Shown here in pieces: positions 46,361 through 52,153 of a DNA stretch of 64,000 bases. Source of the DNA: Halovivax cerinus (GTDB lineage Archaea; Halobacteriota; Halobacteria; Halobacteriales; Natrialbaceae). The first letter of the stretch is position 1, and each line of letters begins with the position of its first letter. The notes under the pieces were generated by a model. That model saw only the letters and a program-made list of their open reading frames with translations, was not told the DNA's origin and did not search any database. The stretch covers positions 3,720,001-3,784,000 of the forward strand of contig NZ_CP101824.1 of assembly GCF_024498195.1 (NCBI RefSeq), read 5' to 3'. A program made the position numbers and the translations under genes.

Positions 46361-46460
46361 CGCGACGACGGATACACGGGAACCCGTCGTCGGCATGGGA
46401 TCTCGAGCGACGTCCGGGAGAGGAGCAGACTTTTGCGCACGCGACGCGAACGGGCGCCAC

Positions 46461-47270
46461 ATGGAGGAGGCGTGGCGAGGGACCAAGCCCCAGGTCGGCG
46501 ATTACATGACGCAGGACGTCGCGACGGTTCCCCCGGACGCGACGGTGGAGACGGTCGCCGTCCGCATCGCGGAGAGCGACAATCACAGCGGGTATCCGGT
46601 CTGCGATCGCCGTCGCGTCGAGGGGTTCGTCAGCGCGCGCGATCTGTTACTGGCGGATGACGACGAACCCATCTGGAAGGTGATGTCGACCGACCTCATC
46701 GTCGCCCACCCCGAGATGAAGGTGACCGACGCGGCCCGCGTCATCCTTCGATCGGGCATCCAGAAGCTGCCGGTGGTCGACGACGCGGGTACTCTCGTCG
46801 GCATCATCTCGAACGCCGACGTCATTCGCAGTCAGATCGAACGGGCGACGCCAGAGAAGGTGGGCAAACTCGTCAGAACACTCGAGAACATCCACGGTGT
46901 CGACTTCGAACGAACGCGACGGACGGTCTCGCTCGACGAACTCGTCCCTACGCAGGGGCGCGTCTACGCTGACGAACTAGAGGGGCGTCGCTACGAGCTG
47001 GAACACGGGCTGGCGGAACCACTCGTCGTCATCGACAACGCCGGCGCCACGCTGCTCGCCGACGGTCACCACCGCGTCCTGGCTGCGGATCGACAGGGTA
47101 TCGACGAGATGGACGCCTACGTCATCGAGACCGGCGAGCCGCTCGACCTCGGCATGGCCAGAACCGCCCAGAAGGAGGACCTCACCTCGATCGACGACAT
47201 CGAAGTCGTGGACTACGCCCGCCACCCGCTCGTCGAGACGACGAAGCGGCTGCAGTCCGAGAGCGAGTGA
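46461..47270 (+). CDS. CBS-pair protein fused to a ParB/SerK-like domain
   Basis: A 269-residue protein. Residues 14-64 and 71-125 are two CBS domains (YMTQDVATVPPDATVETVA; VMSTDLIVAHPEMKVTDAA), a pair that commonly binds adenylate ligands. Residues ~155-235 are a ParB/sulfiredoxin-fold domain with the nucleotide motif GHHRVLAAD (202-210). One archaeal branch of this fold is the free serine kinase SerK of Thermococcus; others are chromosome-partition ParB. No HTH DNA-binding domain is present, which disfavours a partitioning role. An adenylate-regulated enzyme is my inference. ATG 46461 is ~30 bases after a CTTTTG box. Confidence 0.83.
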   Translation: MEEAWRGTKPQVGDYMTQDVATVPPDATVETVAVRIAESDNHSGYPVCDRRRVEGFVSARDLLLADDDEPIWKVMSTDLIVAHPEMKVTDAARVILRSGIQKLPVVDDAGTLVGIISNADVIRSQIERATPEKVGKLVRTLENIHGVDFERTRRTVSLDELVPTQGRVYADELEGRRYELEHGLAEPLVVIDNAGATLLADGHHRVLAADRQGIDEMDAYVIETGEPLDLGMARTAQKEDLTSIDDIEVVDYARHPLVETTKRLQSESE

Positions 47271-47307: not shown

Positions 47308-48273
47308 TTACGACTCCAGGTGGGTGTCGAGGACGGACGCATCAGCTCGTAACCAGAGTCGCAGGGAGTCGTCCTCGGCGACCAGCTCGACGACCGCCCC
47401 TGCCCCCTCAGGCGGGTCGACCGCCGGTACGCCCGGACCGATCTCGGCAGCTGATGGCGACGGTGAATCCAGCGAACCGTCGGAGACGGGTATCCGCCAG
47501 CTGGTGACGCGCTCCAGTGACGTCCCGAGGTACGGCAGTCCGGACTGATCGTCACCGAGTTCGTGTCGGAACGCCACTGTTGCAGGATGATCGACGACGT
47601 AGACGGTCGCGGGCCAGGCGAAGTGAAACCCACAGTCGGTACAGTCGACGCCGACGAACGCCTCACTGCGTTCGAGATCGTCGAGGTCGCGGTTCGGGTA
47701 CGACGGCGGCTCGTCCAGGAGTGACGACACGGTCCGGCCGCGACAGTGCGGACAGAGTCCGGCTTTCGCGTCGTGGAGTTGCGACCGAACGGATCGACCG
47801 GCTACCTCGACGACCTCGTCGATCGGGCGGTCACGAACGGGCCGTTTCGACAGGATCGTCCCGACGAGGTCGTCGTGCGTCGGACACCTGAGTCGGACGT
47901 ACCCGTGTTCGTATATCGCGACGAGGGTCTCCTCACACCGCGGACAGACGTGCGACGTACTCTCTCTCCGCGTCACGGTGGCCGGGTCGTAGGCGCCCGA
48001 GAGAACGCGTCCAACGAGGGACAGTCCTTCGTTGGTGAGTACGTACTCGTCGTCGATCTTGTGGACGAACCGGTCGGTGAGCTTCGACAGGTGGTAGTTG
48101 AATAGACCAGCATCCCGTACGCCGATTGCCTTGCGAAGGTCCGCGAACCCGAGGCCGACCGGCCGCCAGGTGTCGCGACGGTGTTTCGCGAGTTCAGAGA
48201 CGATCTGCCACCGGGTGGGATCGGCGAGCACGTCGAACGCGTCGACCCCATCAGGCGACTCCATAGGACACAT
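47308..48273 (-). CDS. HTH transcriptional regulator with zinc-ribbon domains
   Basis: A 321-residue regulator typical of haloarchaea. Residues ~10-85 are an ArsR-like winged HTH (DAFDVLADPTRWQIVSELA; GLFNYHLSKLTDRFV). Two zinc-binding clusters follow: CPRCEETL...RLRCPTHD (~105-130) and CPHCRG...CTDCGFHFAWP (~165-210). It is divergently transcribed from the ABC exporter and the gap contains a strong inverted repeat, suggesting it controls itself and the exporter. Start may be ATG 48273 or 48264; the longer frame has poor composition. Confidence 0.85.
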   Translation of the reverse strand: MCPMESPDGVDAFDVLADPTRWQIVSELAKHRRDTWRPVGLGFADLRKAIGVRDAGLFNYHLSKLTDRFVHKIDDEYVLTNEGLSLVGRVLSGAYDPATVTRRESTSHVCPRCEETLVAIYEHGYVRLRCPTHDDLVGTILSKRPVRDRPIDEVVEVAGRSVRSQLHDAKAGLCPHCRGRTVSSLLDEPPSYPNRDLDDLERSEAFVGVDCTDCGFHFAWPATVYVVDHPATVAFRHELGDDQSGLPYLGTSLERVTSWRIPVSDGSLDSPSPSAAEIGPGVPAVDPPEGAGAVVELVAEDDSLRLWLRADASVLDTHLES

Positions 48274-48320
48274 TTCAGAGAGGGGCCCATGACGGTTTCG
48301 ACCGGGCCCACCTGTCACAT

Positions 48321-48355
48321 AGATAACCGAACGGCCGTTCAGGGAAGGGTTATCT
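48321..48355. promoter_or_regulatory. Operator-like inverted repeat between regulator and ABC exporter
   Basis: Perfect 8-base arms AGATAACC (48321-48328) and GGTTATCT (48348-48355) enclose a separate perfect 12-base palindrome, GAACGGCCGTTC (48329-48340). The right arm overlaps the position of the exporter's TATA box (about 27-33 bases before ATG 48381), and the left arm faces the regulator gene. Binding there would block both transcripts. Confidence 0.7.
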
Positions 48356-48380
48356 GTCAACCGGGGGTAGGGTGGATCGA

Positions 48381-49505
48381 ATGACCGAATCAGTGAAATT
48401 CGGGGGTGACACGGACCCGCCCACGGGCGGTCCACGCGACGCGCCGTCGGCGGAGCCGAGCGACGAGCAGTCCGACGAACGGCGCGGTCCGATCGATGAC
48501 GAAGTAAACTCGGCGACCGACGCTGAGACCGAACACGAATCAGCGCAGGCGAACACCATCGTCGAGGCCCGGAACCTCACCAAGACGTACGGGAGCGGCG
48601 CGGACGCGGTGACGGCAGTCGACGGGGTCGACCTCGACGTCGAGCCCGGGACCGCCGTCGGGGTGCTCGGACCGAACGGCGCGGGCAAGACCACGACGAT
48701 CAAACTCCTACTGGGACTGGTCCTGCCGGACTCTGGTGAGGCACTGATCGACGGCGTGAACGTCCTCGACTCCCCCAGGAGAGGGTATCGCGCTGTCGCG
48801 GCAATGCTCGAGGGTGCGAGGAACGTCTACTGGCGACTCACGGTGCGAGAGAACGTCCGGTACTTCGCTCGGCTCGGCGACCGGCCGGCCGACACGGACC
48901 GCATCGACGCGCTAATCGAGCAGGTCGGCCTGTCCGATAAGGCCGACACGACGGTCAACGAGCTCTCTCGCGGGATGAAGCAGAAGGCGTCGCTGGCCTG
49001 CACGCTCGTCCGCGACACCCCGGTCGTCTTTCTCGACGAGCCCACCCTCGGCCTGGACGTCGAGAGTTCGCTCGAACTGCGCCGGGAGCTTCGGACGCTC
49101 GTCGACGAGGAAGAGCGGACGGTGATCCTCTCGAGTCACGACATGGACGTCATCGAGGCCGTCTGCGATCGGGTCGTGATCATGAACGACGGACGGGTCG
49201 TGGCCGACGATCCGATCGACGAGCTCCTCTCGGTGTTTCGCACACAAGCGTACCGGGTCCGCCTCGACGGGACGCTCTCGGTCGAGACGAAAACCGCGCT
49301 CGAATCCGACGTCGGCGCGACCGACTGGGTCGAAGGAGGCGCAACGACGCGATTCGACGCACGTACCGTTCGCGGCGAGCAATTCCACGACTTGCTCGCG
49401 ACGATTCGTGACTCGCGGGCGACGTTTCGGTCGGTCGATCTGTTAGAACCCGATCTCGAGGAGATCTTTCTCGAAATTACCGATGGCGGTGGTGAGGATC
49501 GATGA
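48381..49505 (+). CDS. ABC-2 exporter ATP-binding protein
   Basis: A 374-residue ATPase with a ~60-residue acidic N-terminal extension. Walker A is GPNGAGKTTTIKLLLGL, signature LSRGMKQKASLACTL, Walker B VVFLDEPTLGLDVE and the switch His is in SSHDMDVIE. The DrrA/CcmA-like type normally exports drugs, lipids or polysaccharides. ATG 48381 is taken over a GTG nine bases earlier. It overlaps the permease gene by four bases. Cargo is unknown. Confidence 0.9.
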   Translation: MTESVKFGGDTDPPTGGPRDAPSAEPSDEQSDERRGPIDDEVNSATDAETEHESAQANTIVEARNLTKTYGSGADAVTAVDGVDLDVEPGTAVGVLGPNGAGKTTTIKLLLGLVLPDSGEALIDGVNVLDSPRRGYRAVAAMLEGARNVYWRLTVRENVRYFARLGDRPADTDRIDALIEQVGLSDKADTTVNELSRGMKQKASLACTLVRDTPVVFLDEPTLGLDVESSLELRRELRTLVDEEERTVILSSHDMDVIEAVCDRVVIMNDGRVVADDPIDELLSVFRTQAYRVRLDGTLSVETKTALESDVGATDWVEGGATTRFDARTVRGEQFHDLLATIRDSRATFRSVDLLEPDLEEIFLEITDGGGEDR

Positions 49506-50371
49506 GTGATGAGCCGATGAGTAGTGAGCCGATGCGAGGAGCGTCGACCGGTGAGAGGAGCCGACCCGTCCGCGGGACGAACGGCCGTTCGCGTGTCCGC
49601 TCCCTCCGGCGTCTCCTCGCGGCCGTCGTCGAGAAACAGGTGGCCCTCCTCACACGCTACTGGATCAACACCGTGACGATGCTCGTCACCACGTACGTCT
49701 TCTTCGCGCTCATCTTCTACGGCGGGCAGGCCGTGGCCGGACCGGCGATCGAGGACTCGCTCGACGGCATCGTCGTCGGCTTCTTCCTCTTTACGGCGAC
49801 GCTCGCGGCGTTCTTCGGAACGGCCCAGAACGTCCAGCGCGAGGCACAGTGGGGGACGCTCGAACAACTGTTCATGTCCCCACACGGCATCGGACGCGTG
49901 ATGGCGGTCAAGTCCGTCTGGAACGTGGGCTTCAGCATCGTCGTGGCGCTCGCGCTGCTGGTCGTCATGCTGGTGACGACCGGGCGAGACCTGACAGTGG
50001 ACGTCGTGACCGTCTCGGTCGTGACGACGCTGGCCGTCAGCTCGGTCCTCGGTATCGGCTTCGTCTTCGCCGGCCTCTCACTGCTCTACAAGCGCATCGA
50101 GAACGTCCAGCAGCTGATGCAATTCGCCTTCATCGGCCTCATCGCCGCCCCGGTCGCCGACCTGCCGTGGGTGGTCGGTCTCCTTCCCCTCTCGACGGGG
50201 AGCGGGATGTTGCAGACGGCCATGGGCGACGGCCGGACCCTGCTGGCGTTCTCGACCGGTGACCTCGCGATGCTCGTCGGTACGGGGATCGCGTACCCGC
50301 TCCTGGGCTACCTCGTCTTCCGGTTGTGCGTGCGCCGAGCGCGTCGACTCGGCGTGATGGGCCACTACTGA
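49502..50371 (+). CDS. ABC-2 type permease
   Basis: A 289-residue membrane protein with six predicted helices, partner of the preceding ATPase. The ~40-residue N-terminus is basic and serine-rich; helices include NTVTMLVTTYVFFALIFYGG, GIVVGFFLFTATLAAFFGTA and FSIVVALALLVVMLVTTG. The block FGTAQNVQREAQWGTLEQLFMSP is the ABC-2 signature region. Starts in an ATGA overlap and ends the small operon. Confidence 0.88.
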   Translation: MSDEPMSSEPMRGASTGERSRPVRGTNGRSRVRSLRRLLAAVVEKQVALLTRYWINTVTMLVTTYVFFALIFYGGQAVAGPAIEDSLDGIVVGFFLFTATLAAFFGTAQNVQREAQWGTLEQLFMSPHGIGRVMAVKSVWNVGFSIVVALALLVVMLVTTGRDLTVDVVTVSVVTTLAVSSVLGIGFVFAGLSLLYKRIENVQQLMQFAFIGLIAAPVADLPWVVGLLPLSTGSGMLQTAMGDGRTLLAFSTGDLAMLVGTGIAYPLLGYLVFRLCVRRARRLGVMGHY

Positions 50372-50449
50372 TCGTAGTTTCCGGCCGAACCCGGCGGATA
50401 CCAACGCCGTTCCCGAAGGCTAATGATCACTCCTGTGCAACCTCGACGC

Positions 50450-52153
50450 ATGTACGACGAGGAGGAGCTCTCGGAGATACGGGAGGCCGAGTCCCGGTGG
50501 GAATCCGAGACGCTAGAGCCCGTGCTCGATCGATTTGGCGAGCGAAAGGATCGCTTCGCGTCGGTCTCGAACCTCGAGGTCGATCGGCTCTACACGCCCG
50601 ACGACGTGGCCGATATCGACTTCGACGACGACCTCGGCTTTCCCGGCGAGGAGCCCTACACGCGCGGACCGTACCCGACGATGTACCGCGGGCGCACGTG
50701 GACGATGCGCCAGTTCGCCGGTTTCGGTACCGCAGAGGAGACCAACGAGCGCTTTCACTACCTGATCGAGCAAGGCCAGACCGGCCTCTCGACGGCGTTC
50801 GACATGCCGTCGCTGATGGGGATCGACTCCGACCACCGGATGAGCCAGGGCGAGGTCGGCAAGGAGGGCGTCGCGGTCGACACCCTGCGTGACATGGAGA
50901 TCCTCTTCGACGGGATCGACCTGGACGAGGTCTCCACGAGCTTTACGATCAACCCCTCCGCACCGGTCATCTACGCGATGTACGTCGCGCTGGCGGACCA
51001 GCAGGGCGTCCCGCGCGAGGAGATCCGTGGCACCCTCCAGAACGACATGTTCAAGGAGTTCATCGCCCAGAAGGAGTGGAAGATCCCCCCGGAACCCTCG
51101 CTCTCTCTCGTCACCGACGTCGTCGAGTTCAGCGCCCAGGAGACGCCGAAGTTCCACCCGATCTCCGTCTCGGGCTATCACATCCGCGAGGCCGGCTCGA
51201 CGGCGGTGCAGGAACTGGCCTTCACGTTGGCAGACGGCTTCGGATACGTCGAGGACGCGATGGATCGCGGGCTCGACGTCGACGACTTCGCGCCGCGACT
51301 CTCCTTCTTCTTCAACTGTCACAACTCCTTCTTCGAGGAGGTCGCGAAGTTCCGGGCCGCCCGGCGCATCTACGCCCGCGTGATGGACGAGTGGTACGAT
51401 GCCGAGAAAGCGGAGTCGAAGCGCCTGAAGTTCCACACCCAGACCGCGGGCCAGTCGCTGACCGCCCAGCAGCCGCTCAACAACGTCGTCCGCGTGACGA
51501 TCCAGGCCCTGGCCGGCGTCATGGGCGGCACGCAGAGCCTTCACACCAACAGCTTCGACGAGGCGCTGGCCCTGCCGAGCGAGGACGCCGTCCGCGTCGC
51601 GCTGCGCACCCAGCAGATCATCGCCGAGGAGTCCGGCGTCGCCGACATCGTCGACCCGCTCGGCGGCTCCTTCGCCGTCGAGAGCCTCACGAACGAGGTC
51701 GAGGAAGACGCGATGGCCTACATCGAGGAGATCAAAGACCTCGGCGACGGGTCGGTTCGCGACGGCATCCTTCGGGGCATCGACGACGGCTACTTCCTCC
51801 GAGAGATCCAGGAATCCTCATACGAGTACCAGGAACGCGTCGAACGCGGCGAGGAGGTCGTGGTCGGTGTCAACGAGTACACCCTCGAAGAGGACACCAG
51901 TCCCGATCTCCTCCACGTCGACGAAGCGGCCACCTCGGAGCGCCAGCTCGGCCGCCTCGCCGAGGTCAAAGACGAACGCGACGACGACGCCGTCGAGGAG
52001 ACGCTCGACGAACTTTGCGACGCCGTCGACCGCGGCGAGAACACGCTGCCGTACATCGTCGACGCCGTGAAAGCCTACGCGACGATGGGCGAGATCATGC
52101 AGATCTTCGAGGACGTCCACGGCTCCTACACCGAACAGATCGGCCTGGCCTGA
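50450..52153 (+). CDS. Methylmalonyl-CoA mutase, large (catalytic) subunit
   Basis: A 567-residue catalytic subunit interconverting methylmalonyl-CoA and succinyl-CoA. Substrate-site motifs RGPYPTMYRGRTWTMRQFAG (about 63-82), GQTGLSTAFDMP and TQSLHTNSFDEALALPSE are present. It lacks the C-terminal B12-binding domain, which in archaea is a separate small subunit; that gene and the MeaB chaperone are not in this window. I take ATG 50450 (MYDEEELSEI); 27 bases upstream, in frame, is another ATG (50423). Confidence 0.93.
   Translation: MYDEEELSEIREAESRWESETLEPVLDRFGERKDRFASVSNLEVDRLYTPDDVADIDFDDDLGFPGEEPYTRGPYPTMYRGRTWTMRQFAGFGTAEETNERFHYLIEQGQTGLSTAFDMPSLMGIDSDHRMSQGEVGKEGVAVDTLRDMEILFDGIDLDEVSTSFTINPSAPVIYAMYVALADQQGVPREEIRGTLQNDMFKEFIAQKEWKIPPEPSLSLVTDVVEFSAQETPKFHPISVSGYHIREAGSTAVQELAFTLADGFGYVEDAMDRGLDVDDFAPRLSFFFNCHNSFFEEVAKFRAARRIYARVMDEWYDAEKAESKRLKFHTQTAGQSLTAQQPLNNVVRVTIQALAGVMGGTQSLHTNSFDEALALPSEDAVRVALRTQQIIAEESGVADIVDPLGGSFAVESLTNEVEEDAMAYIEEIKDLGDGSVRDGILRGIDDGYFLREIQESSYEYQERVERGEEVVVGVNEYTLEEDTSPDLLHVDEAATSERQLGRLAEVKDERDDDAVEETLDELCDAVDRGENTLPYIVDAVKAYATMGEIMQIFEDVHGSYTEQIGLA

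Follow-up and report, generated by a model that had tools for sequence, protein, structure and literature searches.

In Archaeoglobus fulgidus, MDR1 is reportedly a local wHTH repressor encoded adjacent to its ABC transporter. According to PMC4158304, repression of the MDR1 type acts downstream of BRE/TATA, and PMC4158304 and PMC5512572 have archaeal activators binding on the upstream side of the BRE, with repressors covering BRE/TATA or sitting downstream of it. Among the activators, TFB-RF1 (PF1088), which acts on pf1089, and EarA, which acts on fla, help TFB at weak BREs, as described in PMC5512572. Repressors of bacterial efflux pumps of the ArsR/MarR type, such as MepR, ArsR and CadC, have the wHTH domain and the efflux logic in common with the locus described here. 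The locus resembles that of MDR1 in that a local HTH regulator adjoins a transporter, control of the exporter being a prediction here, but differs in the position of the site, which lies between two divergent promoters and adjoins the BRE on its upstream side, and in the protein, a zinc-ribbon protein of the DUF7347-DUF7351 type. A site directly upstream of the BRE is also found with EarA, and TFB recruitment to one promoter, as by PF1088 at pf1089, is what an activating function would share; the near-consensus BRE of the window and the different protein families set the locus apart from both. Searches of the open-licence literature found no paper on DUF7351 or DUF7347, and in that on haloarchaeal ABC transporters, ArsR, operators or the BRE no title or abstract start described this system, which is most likely a new example of a familiar type of local gene switch.

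The window, that is the whole 64-kb stretch of Halovivax cerinus DNA analysed, carries around the site, in this order, a CBS-domain gene (46395-47270, plus strand), the regulator gene (47308-48273, minus strand), which encodes 321 aa with a DUF7347 wHTH and a DUF7351 part, the gene for an ABC exporter ATP-binding protein (48381-49505, plus strand), a gene for an ABC-2-type permease-like membrane protein (49502-50371, plus strand), which overlaps the ATPase stop as in an operon, and a methylmalonyl-CoA mutase gene (50423-52153, plus strand). With the regulator ATG at 48273 or 48264 and the exporter ATG at 48381, which is preferred over the alternative GTG at 48372, the start codons are about 107-116 nt apart, in agreement with the divergent gap of about 100 bases given in the initial annotation. 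The best NCBIfam match of the ATPase, the DrrA-type daunorubicin-resistance ABC ATPases (TIGR01188), reaches 216.6 bits against a curated cut-off of 312.45, so that the protein resembles this subfamily but is not a member of it. The permease-like protein matches no Pfam or NCBIfam family at E ≤ 0.001, and its assignment relies on its sharing an operon with the ATPase and on the conservation of the two as a pair.

The regulator combines a winged helix with a zinc ribbon and belongs to the DUF7347-DUF7351 family, scoring above the gathering cut-offs of both Pfam families (PF24038, 75.0 bits against 27.6; PF24042, 88.8 bits against 31.2). Its AlphaFold2 model has a mean pLDDT of 81.5; helices and a hairpin at the N terminus fit a wHTH, and the C-terminal part is β-rich. 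A Foldseek search against the PDB gave no match at E ≤ 0.001, the weak matches, all at E > 0.001, being wHTH domains of MepR (3eco), ArsR (6j0e), CadC (3f72) and MntR, and a sequence profile search of the PDB gave a best E of 0.046. Similarity to the ArsR/MarR-type repressors is weak and confined to the domain, whereas the long DUF7351 part has no counterpart in these matches. Two paired cysteine clusters are present in the C-terminal half, with C110, C130, C174, C177, C211 and C214 invariant in 24 of 24 aligned family members, some of which do not adjoin this exporter, and C113 nearly so. As this pattern is family-wide whatever the neighbouring gene, it suggests structural zinc ribbons, the cysteines probably holding structural zinc rather than a sensor metal, and it lends no support to the earlier idea that a metal is sensed through these clusters. 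A sensor metal site of the ArsR/CadC type, specific to efflux-linked members, was not singled out among the 24 sequences.

The divergent gap had been described as harbouring nested palindromes. The outer arms AGATAACC (48321-48328) and GGTTATCT (48348-48355), with a spacer of 19 nt, and the inner perfect 12-bp palindrome GAACGGCCGTTC (48329-48340) are indeed exact, but they are not concentric, the centres lying at 48338 and 48334.5 respectively. Perfect 8-bp inverted repeats with spacers of 3-30 nt number 143 in the 64 kb (0.24 expected per 107 nt) and perfect 12-bp palindromes 53 (0.09 expected per 107 nt), while for the two arms searched as one gapped pattern, which was picked post hoc, 0.01 is expected per window. 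Since a blind count shows that such repeats are not unusual here, the argument depends on comparison across genomes, where by alignment the inner palindrome is kept in position and sequence and the outer dyad is not. A scan of the genome (3.90 Mb, one contig) for further copies finds GAACGGCCGTTC at six places, whereas the full pattern has its only match at 0 mismatches at the window site, the next two having 3 mismatches. A second copy in the window (49579-49590) lies within the permease coding sequence and was judged coincidental, and the four copies outside the window all fall inside long ORFs, be it on one strand or on both; with five of the six places inside long ORFs, the 12-mer alone was ruled out as a genome-wide regulon marker. 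A search for sigma-70 promoters, the wrong promoter type here in any case, found none, and a terminator-like prediction on the minus strand (48342-48327), which corresponds to the palindrome plus left arm, was not taken as a terminator.

The permease of the exporter is present in 87 of 125 genomes of the family, and 40 permease loci from 39 genomes were compared: the regulator is divergent from the exporter in four (genus g2, L083-L086), and in the remaining 36 no regulator lies within the stretch examined. A search of genome contigs for relatives gave a single distant match. Orthologue candidates were obtained with a profile of five regulators searched across 392 genomes of the order, and among 20 further loci compared, 13, in other families, have the layout regulator (minus), ATPase (plus) and permease (plus), which there and in the four loci of genus g2 is often flanked outside by CBS and MCM genes. 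In L142 and L147 the regulator stands alongside different ABC genes, and L148, L153, L155, L156 and L157 have neither an ATPase nor a permease of this kind. Further syntenic loci were sought in the G130 and G263 genera and the G180 and G359 families, where none was new, and the G407 family contributed three.

Across the divergent gaps, a block of 31 nt aligns gap-free (consensus ACTGAAAGGCCGTTCTGGAAACCGTTAATGG; ACCGAACGGCCGTTCAGGGAAGGGTTATCTG at 48326-48356 in the window), in which columns 1-17 represent an operator of the CTGAA-N6-TTCTG type with 3 to 7 of 8 pairs symmetric; a BRE-like GGAAA comes directly after it, then a TATA-like element (GTTAAT or GTTAT). In the window, this operator is the 16-bp CCGAACGGCCGTTCAG (48327-48342), which contains the 12-mer as its core, and the consensus among orthologues is CTGAA-N6-TTCTG, or CTGAACGGCCGTTCAG-like. 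All 18 loci with a regulator orthologue divergent from this exporter, which span several haloarchaeal families, have the site at fixed, ungapped spacing before the exporter BRE/TATA. Since the 31-mers had initially been chosen by eye, they were tested with matrices that omitted the whole clade of each locus: the site was the top match in 19 of 19 gaps (the 18 loci plus L142, whose exporter differs) with scores of 14.9 to 35.5. In 2000 draws of random sequence, the highest score per 350 nt had its 99th percentile at 9.2 and peaked at 17.6. With a matrix built without the window, the window site ranks first of about 128,000 positions in the 64 kb, at 28.7 versus 13.1 for the next. Three of three held-out syntenic loci, L240, L241 and L243, which belong to the same genus as the training loci L143 and L144, have the site (36.8, 36.0 and 36.9); L244 reaches a contig edge and was left out of scoring. 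The site is absent from L147, where the regulator orthologue stands beside another ABC neighbour. Site and regulator thus occur together across families, which bears out the proposed palindromic site between a local wHTH zinc-ribbon regulator and a divergent ABC-type exporter, and on these alignments the palindrome at 48327-48342 very probably serves the adjacent DUF7347-DUF7351 regulator as its operator. In L138 (G180), the regulator orthologue has an in-frame stop (1 TGA; 221-aa ORF) and the operator is the least symmetric, with 3 of 8 pairs; regulator and operator are possibly decaying together.

The operator abuts the BRE-like GGGAAG of the exporter promoter (48342-48347, plus strand; GGAAA in orthologues), and the adjoining GGTTATCT (48348-48355, plus strand), the right arm of the reported dyad, is the exporter TATA element 31 nt before the ATG, its TTA at 48350-48352 being invariant in nine aligned sequences. 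In 17 of 19 loci the TATA element lies 28-32 nt before the ATG, the exceptions being L139, with the first ATG at 21, and L146, with none; these distances support ATG 48381 and a nearly leaderless exporter transcript. On the minus strand the left arm (48321-48328) also reads GGTTATCT and is the probable TATA element of the regulator gene. GTCA at 48314-48317 belongs to the partly conserved element rTCA-N8-ACTGAA, whose rTCA precedes the operator block by exactly 12 nt here and in orthologous gaps.

We infer that the regulator would bind the 16-bp palindrome as a symmetric dimer, so that the occupied operator, situated between two divergent core promoters and abutting the exporter BRE, would keep TFB/TBP off the exporter promoter as well as off the regulator's own promoter and both would be repressed, until a signal, perhaps the compound removed by the exporter, releases the regulator. 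A site abutting the BRE could serve the exclusion of TFB or its recruitment. Activation is a real rival, since the spot immediately before the BRE is often where archaeal activators bind: on sensing its signal, the regulator would recruit TFB/TBP to the exporter promoter from the same operator, in accord with the invariant spacing to BRE/TATA and with a location that is usual for archaeal activators (PMC4158304, PMC5512572). Activators go with weak BREs, however (PMC5512572), whereas most orthologous promoters have GGAAA with TTAAT or TTAT, near the published haloarchaeal consensus (BRE CGAAA, TATA TTWT; PMC4983044). The near-consensus BRE/TATA favours repression, as does the location of the operator between both promoters, where it abuts the regulator's probable promoter too, and as does the tolerated loss of the regulator in many relatives that retain the exporter; the same observations speak against activation, which appears possible but rather unlikely. 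Repression, given an operator, is reasonably probable, and the full proposal, an operator through which the adjacent regulator would repress the exporter and itself by occluding the BRE from TFB, is on balance slightly favoured.

The binder might instead be some other DUF7347-DUF7351 paralogue, or another kind of factor, with the neighbouring gene merely travelling along. The window's genome has eight DUF7351 genes, related palindromes occur at paralogous loci, four of which (L236-L239) score 7.7 to 22.1 with the operator matrix, and one exporter locus in the window's genus, L071 (G030:C1:2640500-2647500), keeps the operator CAGAAGCGGCCTTCGG at canonical spacing without an adjacent regulator gene. 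The best regulator match in G030 (E 9.3e-36) is far from the syntenic orthologues, and we read the G030 operator as one that outlived its gene or that is served by a paralogue. Against another binder, the site accompanies 18 of 18 exporters with an adjacent orthologue versus 4 of 36 without (L071 23.1, L079 19.4, L095 16.6 and L080 16.0), the other 32 scoring ≤ 9.2, the 99th percentile of random sequence, and thus lacking the site, and it is absent, with scores below 0, at regulator-like genes which are not divergent from this exporter (L242, L245, L246, L247). This makes a binder other than the adjacent regulator improbable.

A little less probable still is that the outer arms AGATAACC/GGTTATCT are the operator of a repressor covering the TATA element. 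The arms are perfect over 8 bp, and GGTTATCT has no occurrences on either strand of the window other than these two; yet 8-bp inverted repeats are common there, the dyad is missing from orthologous gaps, where the left arm is not conserved as a partner, and the right arm falls, in the alignment, on a TATA element that four same-genus relatives without regulator retain. The initial annotation was right that one arm overlaps the exporter TATA position, but a repressor does not follow from it, as the conserved site lies upstream of the TATA and stops at the BRE. A chance palindrome arising from base composition and codon-like words, for which the abundance of 12-bp palindromes and the remaining genomic copies inside long ORFs could be cited, is barely credible given the positional conservation across families and a matrix match far above every other window position.

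In a tree of 54 exporter rows, the presence of the regulator needs 5 changes. The window's row is nested in a clade of 19 rows, the other 18 of which have no regulator, so that the pair of regulator and exporter is not fixed in the closest relatives; within the window's genus, L068-L070 lack the operator but have retained the core promoter, which in L069 reads GGAAATGGTTATA. In a separate tree, the window regulator sits on a long branch, its kin there sharing no more than 40% identity with it, and has no close donor. The pattern fits ancestral presence of the regulator with repeated loss, and the G030 site supports its earlier presence in the genus; horizontal gain is a possible alternative.

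Other DUF7351 genes show blocks of their own. A second operator type, ACTTAA....CGTnCAG or CATACAG followed by an AT-rich promoter, lies upstream of DUF7351 genes in L027, L028 (ACTTAA....CGTTCAG in these two), L032, L034, L035, L131, L137, L155, L236 and L239, mostly divergent to a membrane-like protein of about 250 aa, L236 and L239 adjoining another ABC ATPase. In L012, L014, L017, L018, L133 and L135, DUF7351 genes divergent to a protein of about 430 aa have in common an ACCAAA/ACCGAA......TTCnCC-like block before a TATA-like element. In the window's genome, a paralogue divergent to another gene (L175, G000:C1:2853000-2858000) has GTGAAGTGTAGTTCAC at equal distance to AGAAACGTTAG. The architecture was tested across the family on 103 regulator-like loci grouped into 55 clusters. 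Perfect 5-bp arms with a 6-nt spacer occurred in 27 of 55 clusters versus 19.3 ± 3.5 in shuffled sequence, with a spacer of 11 nearly equal (26). Pairing was higher at the fixed offset (2.27) than elsewhere (1.27 ± 0.29) solely in the 15 of 55 clusters whose promoter score was 6 or more, an excess gone at stricter promoter thresholds (n = 5 and 4). As these systematic tests gave weak enrichment, a family-wide operator architecture is not claimed, its generality being suggestive only.

DUF7347-DUF7351 proteins may, as a tentative and rather doubtful proposal, form a large family of single-target switches, each with its own palindrome at a fixed distance to the BRE/TATA of a divergent exporter or membrane-protein gene, in which regulator subgroup and half-site would co-evolve (CTGAA..TTCTG here, ACTTAA....CAG in the other membrane/ABC group) and control would be exerted through access of TFB to the BRE. 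The site provides a specific candidate operator and partner gene for a haloarchaeal regulator family which so far carries DUF names only, and, as natural relatives with regulator and site, with neither and with the site only (G030) exist, the locus is a clean case for asking whether a BRE-abutting site represses or activates in archaea.
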